DNA of 64,000 nt from Lactiplantibacillus mudanjiangensis. GTDB lineage: Bacteria; Bacillota; Bacilli; Lactobacillales; Lactobacillaceae. Location of the stretch: contig NZ_BJDY01000002.1 in the NCBI RefSeq assembly GCF_005405385.1, forward strand, positions 248,001 to 312,000, in the 5' to 3' direction. A model generated the notes under the pieces. The model worked only from the letters and a program-made list of their open reading frames with translations, ran no database searches and had not been told where the DNA came from. Of this stretch, positions 25,941 to 31,293 are shown piece after piece. The translations under genes and the position numbers were made by a program. Within the stretch, counting starts at the first letter, position 1, and each line of letters starts with the position of its first letter.

Positions 25941-26864
25941 TTGGCAGGTGCAACTGAAGCACAACGTTTTATCGTCACTGACGAAGCAGGTCGGCTCGAT
26001 AAAGTTTTAGCAGGGTTACAGACAATTTGGACCCGGTCACAAGTTGATAAATTAATAAAAAATGATCAAGTACAAGTTAATGATCAGGTGCAACCAAGCA
26101 AGTATAAAGTGAAAACGGGTGATGTCATTACGGTGGCCCCACAAACGGTTCAGGCAACCGAATTGGTACCGGAAAACATTCCGTTAGATATTGTCTATGA
26201 AGATGATGATGTGATTGTCGTAAACAAGCCCCAAGGAATGGTCGTTCATCCGGCACCCGGACACCCCGATCATACCTTGGTTAATGCGTTGTTATATCAC
26301 AGTCCCTTGTCGACGATTAACGGTGAGTTTCGGCCGGGCATTGTGCATCGAATTGACAAAGACACATCGGGCTTATTGATGGTCGCCAAGAATGATCATG
26401 CACATCAATCCTTGGCAGCGCAATTAAAGGCTAAGACAAATTTACGGGAATACGTGGCTTTGGTACACGGTGTGATTAAAGAAGAAACTGGCACCATTAA
26501 TGCCCCACTTGGCCGATCACCAAAAGATCGTAAGAAACAGGCGATTGTTGCCGATGGCCGCTCAGCCGTGACTCATTTTAAGGTTTTAAAACGATATCAG
26601 CACTATACATTGATCAGTTGTCGTTTGGAAACGGGCCGGACGCATCAAATTCGAGTCCATTTGCAGTCGATTGGTCATCCGTTAGTTGGTGATCCGTTAT
26701 ATGGCCCGAAGAAAACCATTGCCGGTCACGGGCAATTTTTACATGCCAAGTTATTGGGCTTTGAACATCCGACAACTGGTGAAATGATGCAGTTTGAAGC
26801 ACCGTTACCGCCAATCTTTAAGGCCACGTTAGCGAAGCTTGACAAAAGTGATTTGAATCATTAA
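25941..26864 (+). CDS. rluD: RluA/RluD-family 23S rRNA pseudouridine synthase
   Basis: 307 aa, starting at TTG 25941 behind TAGGAGGG. The S4-like RNA-binding domain covers residues ~14-75 and the catalytic domain follows, with the active Asp in HRIDKDTSGLLMVAK (~residues 137-151), KPQGMVVHPAPGH upstream and RTHQIRVHL downstream. Members of this group isomerise uridines of helix 69 in 23S rRNA; the exact position is assumed from family. Its stop codon overlaps the -10 of the pyrR promoter. Confidence 0.94.
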   Translation: MAGATEAQRFIVTDEAGRLDKVLAGLQTIWTRSQVDKLIKNDQVQVNDQVQPSKYKVKTGDVITVAPQTVQATELVPENIPLDIVYEDDDVIVVNKPQGMVVHPAPGHPDHTLVNALLYHSPLSTINGEFRPGIVHRIDKDTSGLLMVAKNDHAHQSLAAQLKAKTNLREYVALVHGVIKEETGTINAPLGRSPKDRKKQAIVADGRSAVTHFKVLKRYQHYTLISCRLETGRTHQIRVHLQSIGHPLVGDPLYGPKKTIAGHGQFLHAKLLGFEHPTTGEMMQFEAPLPPIFKATLAKLDKSDLNH

Positions 26865-26867
26865 TCT
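26839..26867 (+). promoter_or_regulatory. Promoter of pyrR-carA-carB inside the rluD 3' end
   Basis: TTGACA at 26839-26844 and TAATCT at 26862-26867 with 17-bp spacing. The -10 element overlaps the rluD stop, putting the start of transcription near 26874, just before the PyrR-binding loop. Confidence 0.7.
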
Positions 26868-26873
26868 AACAGT

Positions 26874-26985
26874 AATGAGAGTCCTTTAATCCGGCCCAGA
26901 GAGACTGAAAGGCAACACTGTTTACAATAACTTTCGTTGACGGTCGTGGCAGCCAGTTCTGTCAGACCGTCTTCTTTTTTACCGG
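26874..26985 (+). promoter_or_regulatory. PyrR-responsive attenuator leader
   Basis: The PyrR-binding anti-antiterminator loop is at 26883-26912: CCTTT and AAAGG close a stem that displays CCCAGAGAGACT, matching the conserved NGAGRCU-type PyrR site. A terminator follows at 26939-26978: GACGGTC/GACCGTC plus TGGCAG/CTGTCA, then TTCTTTTTT. With UMP bound, PyrR stabilises the loop and transcription ends here; PRPP relieves this. Known mechanism, here read from sequence. Confidence 0.88.
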
Positions 26986-27000
26986 GTAAGCGACCCTTAA

Positions 27001-27561
<561 letters not shown>

Positions 27562-27594
27562 TTTTTCTAAGTCAAAAAGTGAGAAGGGATCGAC

Positions 27595-28677
27595 ATGGCA
27601 GACCGCTATTTGATTCTTGAAGACGGCAGTGCCTACCTCGGTGAAGGCTTCGGTTCTCCCGCGGTTTCAACGGGTGAGATCGTATTTAACACCAGCATGA
27701 CGGGCTATCAAGAAATTATTACAAATCAAATCTATCATAATCAAATTATTGCTTTTACCCAACCCACCATTGGTAGCTATGGAATTAATCATGATAGCTA
27801 TGAATCGATTCTACCAACGGTTAAAGGGGTGGTGGTGCGTGATGTGGCCAGCATTTCGACTAATCGTCAACGCCGTTGGTCACTCGATCAATACTTAAAG
27901 CAACAAAACATTCCAGGAATCAGTCATATTGATACACGTCATTTGGCGAAAAAGCTACGCGTTAGTGGTCCGATGAAAGCTAGTATTGTGGACGTGGCCG
28001 ATGCCCATGCATTTGATCAATTAGGTGCAACGGTGTTGACCAACCAACAAGTAGCCGCCGTGGCAACGCCAAAGCCATTTCCTAATCCAGGGACGGGATT
28101 AAACGTCGTCGTGATCGATTTTGGTTTGAAACATGGTATTTTACGAGAACTCAGTAAACGGGCTTGTAATGTTACCGTGTTGCCGTATACCGCGACGACC
28201 GAAGAAATTATTAACCTTGATCCGGACGGGGTCGTCCTGTCAACTGGTCCTGGGAAACCACAAGATTTACCAGACAGTGTGTTAGAAATGATTCAAAATA
28301 TACAAAATCGGATTCCGTTGTTTGCCATTGGCCTGGGTCACGAACTATTTGCCATGGCCAATGGTGCCCAAATTATGAAATTATCACCAGAACATCATGG
28401 TGCTAATCATCCGATTCGTGAAGTGATTACCAATCAAATTATTTATGCGTCACAAGGTCAAGGATATGCGGTTGATCCAGAAACGATTGATCGTAACAAA
28501 TTGATTACGACATTTGTCGATTTAATTGATGGGACCATTCAAGGGTTGCGCTATCGTGACTTTCCAGCCTTTTCCGTGCAGTTTTTCCCGGATGGGGCAC
28601 CGGGTCCAACCGATGCACTCGATATTTTTGATGAGTTCGTCGAATCCATGCAACAAGCAAGGGGGCCAATCTGGTGA
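27595..28677 (+). CDS. carA: CarA-like protein with lost glutaminase triad (pseudoenzyme)
   Basis: 360 aa, full length for the small subunit of carbamoyl phosphate synthetase. The N-terminal domain is well kept (FNTSMTGYQEIIT, IDTRHLAKKLR). In the class I amidotransferase domain the active Cys of the FGICLGHQ motif is Gly246 (FAIGLGHE), the His and Glu of the QxHPE motif are Phe331 and Asp333 (QFFPDG), and LSNGPGDP is LSTGPGKP. It therefore cannot release ammonia from glutamine by the known mechanism. The frame is clean and codon usage normal. Stop overlaps the carB-like start (GTGA), so the subunits are coupled. A regulatory or scaffold role is inference; databases would likely name it carbamoyl-phosphate synthase small subunit. 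Confidence 0.9.
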   Translation: MADRYLILEDGSAYLGEGFGSPAVSTGEIVFNTSMTGYQEIITNQIYHNQIIAFTQPTIGSYGINHDSYESILPTVKGVVVRDVASISTNRQRRWSLDQYLKQQNIPGISHIDTRHLAKKLRVSGPMKASIVDVADAHAFDQLGATVLTNQQVAAVATPKPFPNPGTGLNVVVIDFGLKHGILRELSKRACNVTVLPYTATTEEIINLDPDGVVLSTGPGKPQDLPDSVLEMIQNIQNRIPLFAIGLGHELFAMANGAQIMKLSPEHHGANHPIREVITNQIIYASQGQGYAVDPETIDRNKLITTFVDLIDGTIQGLRYRDFPAFSVQFFPDGAPGPTDALDIFDEFVESMQQARGPIW

Positions 28678-31232
28678 GTAATGTCGCGTTACAGAAAGTC
28701 TTAATCATTGGTGCTGGCCATAACGATATTGGCCGCGAAGGGCAGCACGACGCTGCCATTACGCAAATTGGTAGCGCCATTCGTAAGCTTGGGATTGCGG
28801 TTATCTTTGTGGATAACAACCCATTTTCAGTGGCGGCCGAGAATAATTTTGCGGATAAAGTGTATTTAGAGCCGTTGACAGTGAGTTCATTGTCTAAAAT
28901 CATTGCGGCGGAACAGCCAGATGGGTTAATTCCTTCACTAGGTGGTATTCAACGCATTAATTTGATTCAAGGGCTAATCCGCAATAACGTTTTAAAAAAT
29001 AATCATGTGCAACTCTTGCAATGGGATACTGACATGATTGATTTAATTGTTAATCCTGCCTTGATGAGTAACCGTCTAAAAGCGCTAGGACAACCAGTGA
29101 TTGCGTCACAAGTTGTGGCAAGTCAAGCTGAGGCAGATCAAGTGGTCAGTCGAGTTGGGTTTCCGGTGATTGTTAAATCAGTTGCGCCGCGAATTGAAGC
29201 AAGTCGTCAACTGTGTGAGGACGAAGAAGATTTAGCTCGGGCTTTGGAAATGGGCTTTAAGGTTTCGGCCACCAAGCAATGTATTGTGGAACAGAGTATT
29301 GTTGGGTACAAAGAAATTGAATTTATTGGGTTGCGAGATTGTAAAGGTACCTCGCTACTCATTACTGGGATGGAAAACTTTGACCCCGTTGGGATTCATT
29401 CGGCTGATTCGATTGTTTTTGTCCCCACGCAAACGATTACCGACCAAGAGTATCAACAATTCCGTCAAGCTACACTAGAGATCATGCAAGCCCTACACAT
29501 CATTGGACCTTGTCATGTGCAATTTGCATTAGATCCAACGACGCAAAACTATTACGTGATTAAAGTGACGCCTTACTTCGATCGGGCTATGGCTTTGGCG
29601 GCACGTGCTACTGGTTATCCATTGGCCACGATCTCGGCTAATTTGATTGCGGGTGTCAGCTTGGCTGAAGTGAAGTTGCCAAACAACTATCGGAAACAAA
29701 CGGCCTTAATTGAACCAGTGTTAGATCATATTGTCTGTCGTATTCCAGTTTGGCCATTTAATGTGTTGAAAAAAGTCAGTCATCAATTAGATACAGTGAT
29801 GGAATCAACCGGTGCGGTGCTTGGTGTGGGTCGTTCGACCGAAGAAGCGTTATTGAAAGGGCTGCGGGCAACGGATGAATCTAAGTATCACGTCATTGTC
29901 AATCAGCCACAGACTTATTCTGAAGGTGAATTGATTCAACGATTGATTCACCCACAGGCTGGGCGGATGTTGGATTTGTTGGAGGCCCTCAATCGAGGCT
30001 ATCAGATTGATGAATTAGCTGAATTAACAAAAATCGATGCCTTTTATTTCTATAAATTAAGTCACATTATTGAGATTGAAAAGGCGTTACGTGAGCATCC
30101 ATTTGATGTTCATGCGCTTGGTCGTGCTAAGTATTTTGGGTTTACGGATGAAGATGCGGCGGTGGCTTGGCAAAGTTCGCCAGCTAAGGTCAGTCAATTT
30201 GGGTTGGAAAATGAAATTCATCCAACGTTTAAAGAAATCGAACCAACCGCTGGCGAGTTTACTGAACAAACCAATACGTATTACTCGACTTACGAATATG
30301 ATAATGAAAGTCAACGATTAGCAGGTGACCGAGTGGTAGTCATCGGTAGTGGCGCTAACCGGATTGGGACTAATCATGGGAACGATTATCTAGTGTCACA
30401 ACTTTTATTCTATTTGAAGAAGGCCGATTATCAGCCCATTTTGATCAATGCGAACCCGAACAGTGTTGCGATGACGCCTCAGCTAGCTGTTAAACGGTAC
30501 GTTGAGCCTAAGCAAGTTTCGGATGTGTTAAATGTGTTGGCGATTGAAAAGCCAAGCATGATTTTCACCACGTATCATGATCAACAATTAGGACGCCAGC
30601 TGATGAATCTTGGTTATCGCGTGATTCAGATTGATAACAGCTTGCCACAGGCGCAATTGAAAACCAACGATCAACCGGCTGTTGAAGTGATTTCAGATGG
30701 TAAAGATGTGACGATCTTTGGGATCAGTGAGATTATCGCGGGTAATAACTTACGGACCGATGTGCACGGGTCAATCTCAGTCTTTCCGTTACAAGATAAG
30801 GCTGAAAATCAAGCGATCGCGGCGCTGATGCCTGAGATTAAACGGCGGGTGTTGAGCGATGGTAAACCGGGTGTTTATACGGTTCGATTGACCATTATTG
30901 ATGCTACGCTGCGGTTAGCATCAGTTGAGCCAATGAGCATTGCCAAGATGGCATTAATTAGTAAGGCAAGTGGGTCTAGTGTGACGCGCTTACTTCTACA
31001 TGTGAAGTTAGGTGAATCACTAGAACAAGTGATGTACGACTATCCAGATATTGCGAAAATACGTAAAATCTTTGTACAGGCCAATACCTTTCCTTACAAT
31101 CAATTACAGATTTTTGGAGATGAAATCACTGGTGAACCAGGTCATGCGACTGGGACCGTGATTGCCCATGGCGCTACGCTACGTGATGCTTTAATAGCGC
31201 TCAAAGCTGGTAATGAACAAACTGATTTTTAA
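28674..31232 (+). CDS. carB: CarB-like protein, shortened and lacking catalytic ATP-grasp residues (pseudoenzyme)
   Basis: 852 aa versus ~1,050-1,070 for CarB. GTG start at 28674. Homology is plain (YKEIEFIGLRD, MENFDPVGIHSADSI, YYSTYEYDN). In the first ATP-grasp the Gly-rich loop LGGTGGG is replaced (APRIEASRQ, residues 171-179) and the metal ligands of IEVNPR are changed (IKVTPY, 296-301: Glu to Lys, Asn to Thr, Arg to Tyr). The second half jumps from ~residue 660 to DGKDVTIFGISEII, lacking ~110 residues of the ATP-grasp; its LIEVNPR is LASVEPM (748-754). The MGS-like allosteric domain is missing. Synthesis of carbamoyl phosphate is not expected. Frame intact, so it is probably selected for another role. 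Confidence 0.9.
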   Translation: MSNVALQKVLIIGAGHNDIGREGQHDAAITQIGSAIRKLGIAVIFVDNNPFSVAAENNFADKVYLEPLTVSSLSKIIAAEQPDGLIPSLGGIQRINLIQGLIRNNVLKNNHVQLLQWDTDMIDLIVNPALMSNRLKALGQPVIASQVVASQAEADQVVSRVGFPVIVKSVAPRIEASRQLCEDEEDLARALEMGFKVSATKQCIVEQSIVGYKEIEFIGLRDCKGTSLLITGMENFDPVGIHSADSIVFVPTQTITDQEYQQFRQATLEIMQALHIIGPCHVQFALDPTTQNYYVIKVTPYFDRAMALAARATGYPLATISANLIAGVSLAEVKLPNNYRKQTALIEPVLDHIVCRIPVWPFNVLKKVSHQLDTVMESTGAVLGVGRSTEEALLKGLRATDESKYHVIVNQPQTYSEGELIQRLIHPQAGRMLDLLEALNRGYQIDELAELTKIDAFYFYKLSHIIEIEKALREHPFDVHALGRAKYFGFTDEDAAVAWQSSPAKVSQFGLENEIHPTFKEIEPTAGEFTEQTNTYYSTYEYDNESQRLAGDRVVVIGSGANRIGTNHGNDYLVSQLLFYLKKADYQPILINANPNSVAMTPQLAVKRYVEPKQVSDVLNVLAIEKPSMIFTTYHDQQLGRQLMNLGYRVIQIDNSLPQAQLKTNDQPAVEVISDGKDVTIFGISEIIAGNNLRTDVHGSISVFPLQDKAENQAIAALMPEIKRRVLSDGKPGVYTVRLTIIDATLRLASVEPMSIAKMALISKASGSSVTRLLLHVKLGESLEQVMYDYPDIAKIRKIFVQANTFPYNQLQIFGDEITGEPGHATGTVIAHGATLRDALIALKAGNEQTDF

Positions 31233-31245
31233 GTAAAGACAATTA

Positions 31246-31293
31246 AAAAAAGACGACTTAGTTGAGTGAGAACTCAATTAAGTCGTCTTTTTG
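31246..31293. terminator. Terminator after the carB-like gene
   Basis: AAAAAGACGACTTA and TAAGTCGTCTTTTT with an inner GTTGAG/CTCAAT arm. It also serves the convergent membrane-protein gene. Confidence 0.92.

Follow-up and report, generated by a model that had tools for sequence, protein, structure and literature searches.

A conserved, catalytically dead carbamoyl phosphate synthetase pair behind rluD in Lactobacillaceae and its possible role in pyrimidine supply

Organization of the locus and its leader

We analyzed a 64,000-nucleotide stretch of the Lactiplantibacillus mudanjiangensis genome (contig NZ_BJDY01000002.1, positions 248,001 to 312,000; hereafter the window), which carries a unit composed of a PyrR-binding loop, a terminator and the genes pyrR2, carA∗ and carB∗ (window 26883-31232). 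The last two genes encode the small and large subunits of a carbamoyl phosphate synthetase (CPS) that has lost its catalytic residues, the asterisk denoting the dead versions. All features of the locus lie on the + strand, and rluD, which encodes a 23S rRNA pseudouridine synthase (25941-26864), is the constant upstream neighbour of the unit. The pyrR2 gene (27031-27561) encodes a paralogue of PyrR, carA∗ (27595-28677) the dead small subunit and carB∗ (28674-31232) a shortened dead large subunit of 852 amino acids; the carA∗ and carB∗ reading frames share 4 nucleotides, and a terminator-like inverted repeat, read from the sequence (31247-31293), closes the unit. The original prediction had described the leader, pyrR and two dead CPS genes as one unit, and this description holds.

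The 3.29-Mb host genome contains two further carAB pairs whose catalytic residues are intact wherever they were checked, one within the operon pyrR1-B-C-Aa-Ab-D-F-E and the other next to argCJBDF. Comparison with the other copies in the genome, as originally proposed, also showed that the products of pyrR2 and pyrR1 are close paralogues (63% alike). PyrR2 scores above the cut-off of the equivalog profile NF003548 (274.5 versus 218) and keeps the phosphoribosyl pyrophosphate (PRPP) motif, as judged from alignment to a PyrR structure.

The binding loop, or anti-antiterminator (CCTTTAATCCGGCCCAGAGAGACTGAAAGG; 26883-26912), was recognized by pattern, by comparison and by a covariance model. It has the same design as that of the host genome's own pyrR1 leader (CCTTTAACTTAGTCCTGTGAGGCTAACAAGG). 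The arms GAAAG (26907-26911) and CTTTC (26931-26935) would, according to the fold, pair into an antiterminator (26907-26935) as the alternative to the binding loop, and an intrinsic terminator made of a GC-rich hairpin and a T-run follows (26939-26980; fold and leader comparison). A binding loop with the conserved hexaloop, then a terminator, is the arrangement of a PyrR-attenuated operon, and the loop precedes the unit in all 21 Lactiplantibacillus genomes searched (the window and L205-L224). The covariance model, built from 27 loops including the window's own, found three sites in the host genome, namely the pyrR1 operon, this unit and a Xan_ur_permease (pyrP-type) gene. PyrR attenuation is conserved in the genus, and termination at this leader is predicted to depend on uridine monophosphate (UMP).

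The loop and terminator announced by the original prediction were therefore recovered, albeit with weak points. The PyrR element of Rfam was not matched in the window leader at the gathering threshold, the folding z-score of the leader is only -1.59, the terminator stem contains a bulge, and a simple scan of the sequence listed neither the leader promoter nor the terminator. Covariation is modest: both sides change at 4 of the 13 pairs of the terminator helix among 14 distinct leaders (88.7% of cells paired), but 29 of 500 shuffles of the whole leader structure reached as many covarying pairs. As for the binding-loop helices, they are almost invariant among the leaders compared and their covariation therefore provides little evidence. 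The promoter-like site that had been placed in the end of rluD (TTGACA, 17 nucleotides, TAATCT; 26839-26867), read from the sequence, overlaps the rluD stop codon; its -35 element is perfect and invariant in 15 leaders, whereas its -10 element matches at 3 of 6 positions only. This promoter is plausible but weak.

Loss of catalytic residues and selection on the pair

In CarA∗ aligned with E. coli CarA from the Protein Data Bank (PDB), Cys269 and His353 are replaced by Gly246 and Phe331, and Gln273 and Asn311 by Glu250 and Gly288. In CarB∗, E299, N301, R303 and R129 of E. coli CarB correspond to K297, T299, Y301 and P128; E215, H243 and Q285 are retained and the glycine-rich loop is lost. The catalytic roles of the numbered residues we take to be those of the E. 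coli enzyme. Pfam recognized a single CPSase_L_D2 stretch and no MGS domain in CarB∗, as against two stretches plus MGS in active PyrAb; the second ATP-grasp is mostly gone, and in the window copy it is not recognized as a domain. The oligomerization domain is recognized (PF02787, 68.8 bits for a cut-off of 26.6). The changes at the Cys and His positions of CarA∗, together with the loss of the site-1 ligands, the second ATP-grasp and MGS from CarB∗, confirm that the pair is dead, as originally claimed. Since CarB∗ has no MGS, titration of UMP through an allosteric domain, one of the functions first suggested, is unlikely, and we rejected UMP sensing via this domain.

CarA∗ exceeds the curated cut-off of TIGR01368 (371.2 versus 307.35) and would therefore be annotated as the glutamine-hydrolysing CPS subunit, so that genomes may seem to possess a step that is in fact missing. 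CarB∗ falls under both cut-offs of its family (583.6 versus 1027 for TIGR01369; 554.5 versus 599 for NF003671), PyrAb of the same genome scoring 1524.4 and 1600.2. The AlphaFold models are mediocre, with a mean predicted local distance difference test score of 64.3 for CarB∗ and 56.9 for CarA∗; the CarB∗ model matches E. coli CarB with a template modelling (TM) score of 0.71 by query length.

The same losses recur in other dead copies. Residue counts and per-region conservation refer to the main clade of these copies (51 rows), 13 dead rows having been left out (L113, L114, L115, L116, L117, L123, L136, L141 and L150-L154). Throughout the main clade, Cys269 is replaced by Gly (51/51), His353 is lost (51/51) and E299 of CarB is replaced by Lys or Arg (51/51); R303 has become Tyr or Phe in 48 of the 51 rows. 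Note that the active CarB set includes L165 (G033) despite its changes at E299 and N301. This locus (G033:C41) combines a Cys-bearing CarA with a CarB carrying E299 to Ala and N301 to Lys, and its contig ends nearby.

These data bear on the idea that CarA∗B∗ is an altered enzyme catalysing a reaction of another kind. The former active-site region of CarA∗ (residues 241-280) is fairly well conserved (mean 0.75), and CarB retains some site-1 residues in left-out rows (L152 has all eight; L113, L116 and L154 have most of them). However, the nucleophile and the His are lost and the metal ligand Glu has given way to a basic residue in the whole main clade, and the second ATP-grasp is not recognizable in the window copy, which makes this idea distinctly unlikely.

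CarA∗ is under strong purifying selection despite its loss of catalysis. Among 21 Lactiplantibacillus genomes (210 pairs), mean identity is 0.956 for CarA∗, 0.901 for PyrAa, 0.873 for rluD, 0.875 for pyrR2, 0.854 for CarB∗ and 0.922 for part of PyrAb. In non-synonymous substitution rate (dN), CarA∗ stays below active PyrAa in 205 of the 210 pairs (ratio of means 0.43), below pyrR2 in 209 and below rluD in every pair. The ratio of dN to the synonymous rate (dS) has a median of 0.0035 for carA∗, a value that rests on the nine usable pairs because most dS values are saturated. CarA∗ has also acquired a new constraint at about residues 131-164 (mean conservation of segment 121-160, 0.76 in dead versus 0.48 in active copies). 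Lost catalytic residues combined with purifying selection is what one looks for in the sequence of a regulatory pseudoenzyme.

Distribution and descent from a pyr operon

The distribution of the dead pair was examined in 80 Lactobacillaceae genomes picked from 397 for their spread over 37 genera. A translated dead CarA lies beside rluD in 70 of them, representing 31 genera (including G134, with the motif GLGF), and 10 have only a Cys-bearing CarA. The unit is present in all 21 Lactiplantibacillus genomes searched and is not confined to one strain, so that the original prediction was too narrow in scope. When synteny was compared, as that prediction had proposed (19 loci), the order fhs-lspA-rluD-pyrR2-carA∗-carB∗ was found in 13 named Lactiplantibacillus species, four Pediococcus species and one metagenome-assembled genome labelled as an uncultured Lactobacillus. 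In Weissella oryzae the order is rluD-pyrR2-carA∗-carB∗, fhs and lspA not being in the stretch examined. A DNA signature for the motif GLGHELFA occurs in at least 194 of the 397 Lactobacillaceae genomes and 21 of 40 genera, a lower bound because variants are missed, and in 8 of 26 Lactobacillaceae in another draw. Across 172 genomes from other Lactobacillales families it was not found once, and none of 103 genomes of other families has more than one CarA.

Sixty loci (L099-L158) were chosen as likely dead copies, hence not as a random sample: 59 are dead, and in all 60 the gene for CarA is followed by one of the CarB family. A pyrR gene adjoins 49 of the 59 dead loci; of the ten others, eight have the pair directly behind rluD and two have a permease in between. 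These ten loci are the argument for supposing that CarA∗B∗ acts alone in pyrimidine or nitrogen metabolism and that its link with PyrR2 is shared history only. This supposition is rather unlikely, in view of the pyrR gene found next to most dead pairs, including 14 of the 15 in genomes that have neither another CarA nor a PyrB over the cut-off (see below).

Six of the 60 loci (L117, L123, L136, L141, L150 and L152) have a pyrP-type permease gene upstream of carA∗, the family being assigned by sequence similarity to one member tested by Pfam. A PyrR loop was found at five of them by a strict pattern and at L123 by eye, and their CarB is 948-1067 amino acids long in five cases and 643 in L141. 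These loci are perhaps intermediates between a full operon and the bare dead pair.

Outside Lactiplantibacillus, PyrR loops were seen at 9 of the 59 dead loci (6 by the strict pattern; L116, L123 and L130 by eye). The coupling of the dead CPS to PyrR, another element of the original prediction, stands in Lactiplantibacillus, but elsewhere the loop is mostly absent and pyrR itself sometimes too; the idea that PyrR controls the pair in every genus was rejected. Hairpin-like leaders with GC-rich repeats were noticed by eye between rluD and pyrR2 at L103-L105, L106 and L107, in which the strict pattern found no PyrR loop; they perhaps represent another kind of control.

The pair is also kept where pyrimidine synthesis is apparently lost. 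No PyrB over the cut-off was found in 17 of the 80 genomes, all of which have a translated dead CarA; in 15 of the 17 it is the only CarA, and pyrR adjoins it in 14. In the absence of PyrB, carA∗ dN/dS is 0.009, 0.018 and 0.022 in three of four pairs, dS being saturated in the fourth. Because it is kept without PyrB or another CarA, CarA∗B∗ cannot serve only to tune an active CPS or de novo synthesis. Action on the real CPSs, which the original prediction had suggested, therefore does not hold as a general function, and a universal role of this type was rejected. A more restricted version, in which CarA∗B∗ modulates active CPSs, for instance through mixed complexes in which CarA∗ sits on PyrAb or CarB∗ joins CarB oligomers, draws on the closeness of CarA∗ to PyrAa of its own genome (54%, versus 40% to the arginine-type CarA) and on the recognizable oligomerization domain of CarB∗. 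It is nevertheless quite improbable given the 15 genomes just mentioned (where no search was made for an active CarB lacking a CarA) and the purifying selection that persists on copies from genomes with a dead CarA only.

PyrR seems to have targets in PyrB-less genomes, since PyrR loops precede pyrP-type permease genes in G015, G388, G024, G044, G217 and G051 and a nucleoside deoxyribosyltransferase gene in G157. Overall, 25 of the 33 genomes searched have PyrR loops. Four genomes (G197, G102, G047 and G035, with loci L112, L113, L114 and L116) have a PyrB over the cut-off and a dead CarA as their only CarA; either their carbamoyl phosphate comes from elsewhere or the pair does more than thought.

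Seven genomes from six other genera (L118 and L159-L164) have, at exactly the rluD site, a pyr operon with an intact CarA in the order rluD-pyrR-B-C-Aa-Ab-(D)-F-E, pyrD not being seen in L161, L163 and L164. They belong to the 10 genomes whose only CarA bears the Cys. The possibility that close relatives have a normal carAB at this place, which would point to simple decay, is thus realized in these genera and in none of the Lactiplantibacillus genomes searched. The dead pair and an active operon were found together at no locus examined, and in genera g12 and g23 both states occur, in different species. In view of the active operons at the same site, pyrR2-carA∗-carB∗ probably descends from a pyr operon that once stood behind rluD. 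The same PyrR loop precedes active operons at this site in relatives, so the leader of carA∗B∗ looks inherited as well.

In the CarA tree, dead copies nest among active ones, several of which are rluD-linked, and the active copy of the host genome belongs to another clade of ten. A quick tree placed the dead rows in a main clade of 52 (Shimodaira-Hasegawa-like approximate likelihood ratio test, 100) and a group of 12 (93), with a single row standing apart. A single origin is thus not what the tree shows, but one dead clade is not rejected either (p = 0.336 in the approximately unbiased test); with long branches in play, one origin and several are both possible.

The active operons at the rluD site and the shortened, fast-evolving CarB∗ could suggest that the pair is a slowly decaying relic kept only by being joined to pyrR2. 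This is extremely improbable: over the 210 pairs dN of CarA∗ is less than half that of PyrAa, the pair is retained where pyrR is not adjacent, and long frames are open in all 69 dead rluD-linked copies (59 in L099-L158, L174, L175 and L263-L270), although these were picked through a profile match that could miss broken ones. Simple local decay was rejected in view of the wide occurrence of the dead pair, its low dN and the purifying selection that operates even without PyrB.

Possible role of the dead complex and known counterparts

The dead CPS probably works as a regulator rather than as an enzyme, because its catalytic residues are lost and yet it is strongly conserved, even without pyrimidine synthesis. 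Starting from four direct observations (the dead residues, the site common with active operons, the purifying selection and the retention without the pathway), we infer for the complex a role as sensor or scaffold in the supply of pyrimidines. The link with pyrimidines draws on the pyrR gene adjoining most dead loci, the pyrP-type permease gene ahead of carA∗ in six of the 60, the PyrR loops in front of such permease genes in PyrB-less genomes and the reported role of PyrR2 in pyr regulation. More specifically, we favour, in the knowledge that it may well be wrong, a reading in which a pyr-operon descendant has been kept as a non-catalytic CarA∗:CarB∗ sensor or scaffold. From the operon copy behind rluD, pyrB, C, D, F and E would have disappeared, and the CPS would have given up catalysis while being kept as a complex. 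Most of the work would fall to CarA∗, whose former glutamine pocket and newly constrained stretch at about residues 131-164 would bind a ligand or partner, and CarB∗ would provide oligomeric support. In Lactiplantibacillus, the level of the complex would be set by PyrR attenuation in response to UMP and PRPP, together with that of pyrR2. Where PyrR is encoded alongside, the complex would most likely have it as partner or output, with pyr and the uracil permease gene pyrP as the targets of PyrR.

Several observations weigh against this sensor or scaffold. PyrR need not be the partner of the pair, since some pairs stand behind rluD without pyrR (L112, L125-L127, L144, L145, L151, L155, L264 and L266) and two loci have a permease but no pyrR between rluD and the pair (L117 and L136). 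The dN of CarB∗ is 1.74 times that of part of active PyrAb and its conservation over the main clade is far lower, which makes a tight role for CarB∗ less certain. In the former active-site region, conservation is weaker in CarA∗ than in active CarA (mean 0.89), and catalysis of another kind, considered above, would equally contradict a non-catalytic role. Finally, no PyrR loop was found in 8 of the 33 genomes searched, six of them PyrB-less (G041, G194, G076, G034, G086 and G020).

Another reading assigns the complex a precise input. The original study of L. plantarum PyrR2 is reportedly that of Arsene-Ploetze in 2006, in which deletion of pyrR2 is reported to have a CO2 phenotype, and its operon name, pyrR1BCAa1Ab1DFE, is said to imply that Aa2 and Ab2 were already known as genes. 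PyrR2 of L. plantarum is reported to regulate the pyr operon in response to inorganic carbon (PMC3582564). As PyrR2 resembles an ordinary PyrR, the carbon input could attractively be ascribed to a protein encoded with it and derived from an enzyme that uses bicarbonate. CarA∗B∗ would then, we would guess, be the sensor that gives PyrR2 its response to inorganic carbon, reading bicarbonate, carbamoyl phosphate or a related signal and setting PyrR-dependent pyrimidine synthesis and uracil uptake. We consider this unlikely: genomes that have lost the pyr operon still keep the pair, and the ligand would need another binding mode because site-1 residues, including R303, are changed. If true, it would explain the response of PyrR2 and provide an example of a metabolic sensor, in wide use among Lactobacillaceae, for which an entire dead enzyme complex had been recruited.

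Whatever its exact role, the pair is a two-subunit enzyme turned non-catalytic, whose small subunit is conserved more strictly than its active twin and which has been maintained over a large bacterial family from food and the gut. What is new is that such a dead complex is conserved at the scale of the family, PyrR2 and PyrR attenuation being already known; no description of a dead CPS in Lactobacillaceae was found in the openly licensed PMC literature searched, including PMC3582564, PMC7911632 and PMC10609543.

Elsewhere in the window, a fluoride riboswitch (RF01734, 55116-55182, - strand, 43.8 bits) lies upstream of a minus-strand gene whose first codons look enolase-like by eye. The association of fluoride riboswitches with enolase is a known pairing.

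The unit can be compared with four known systems. The first is L. plantarum PyrR2, the reported inorganic-carbon regulator: the window pyrR2 corresponds in position to that of L. plantarum EGD-AQ4 (L026, 86%), the difference being that in the openly licensed PMC literature we did not find the two downstream genes described as dead or conserved. With CarAB/PyrAaAb (TIGR01368, TIGR01369; E. coli 1bxr and 1c30), CarA∗B∗ shares both subunits, the fold, the carA-carB order and the succession of domains along CarA and the first half of CarB, but it is devoid of the catalytic Cys and His, the site-1 metal ligands, the second ATP-grasp and MGS. As in a PyrR-attenuated pyr operon, a binding loop, an antiterminator and a terminator precede a unit that begins with pyrR; unlike in such an operon, no enzyme of the de novo pathway with intact residues follows the window leader. 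Finally, mitochondrial CPS1 keeps a glutaminase domain without the Cys in a working enzyme. CarA∗ likewise represents a retained glutaminase without its nucleophile, but the synthetase half of CPS1 is active, whereas CarB∗ is dead too.

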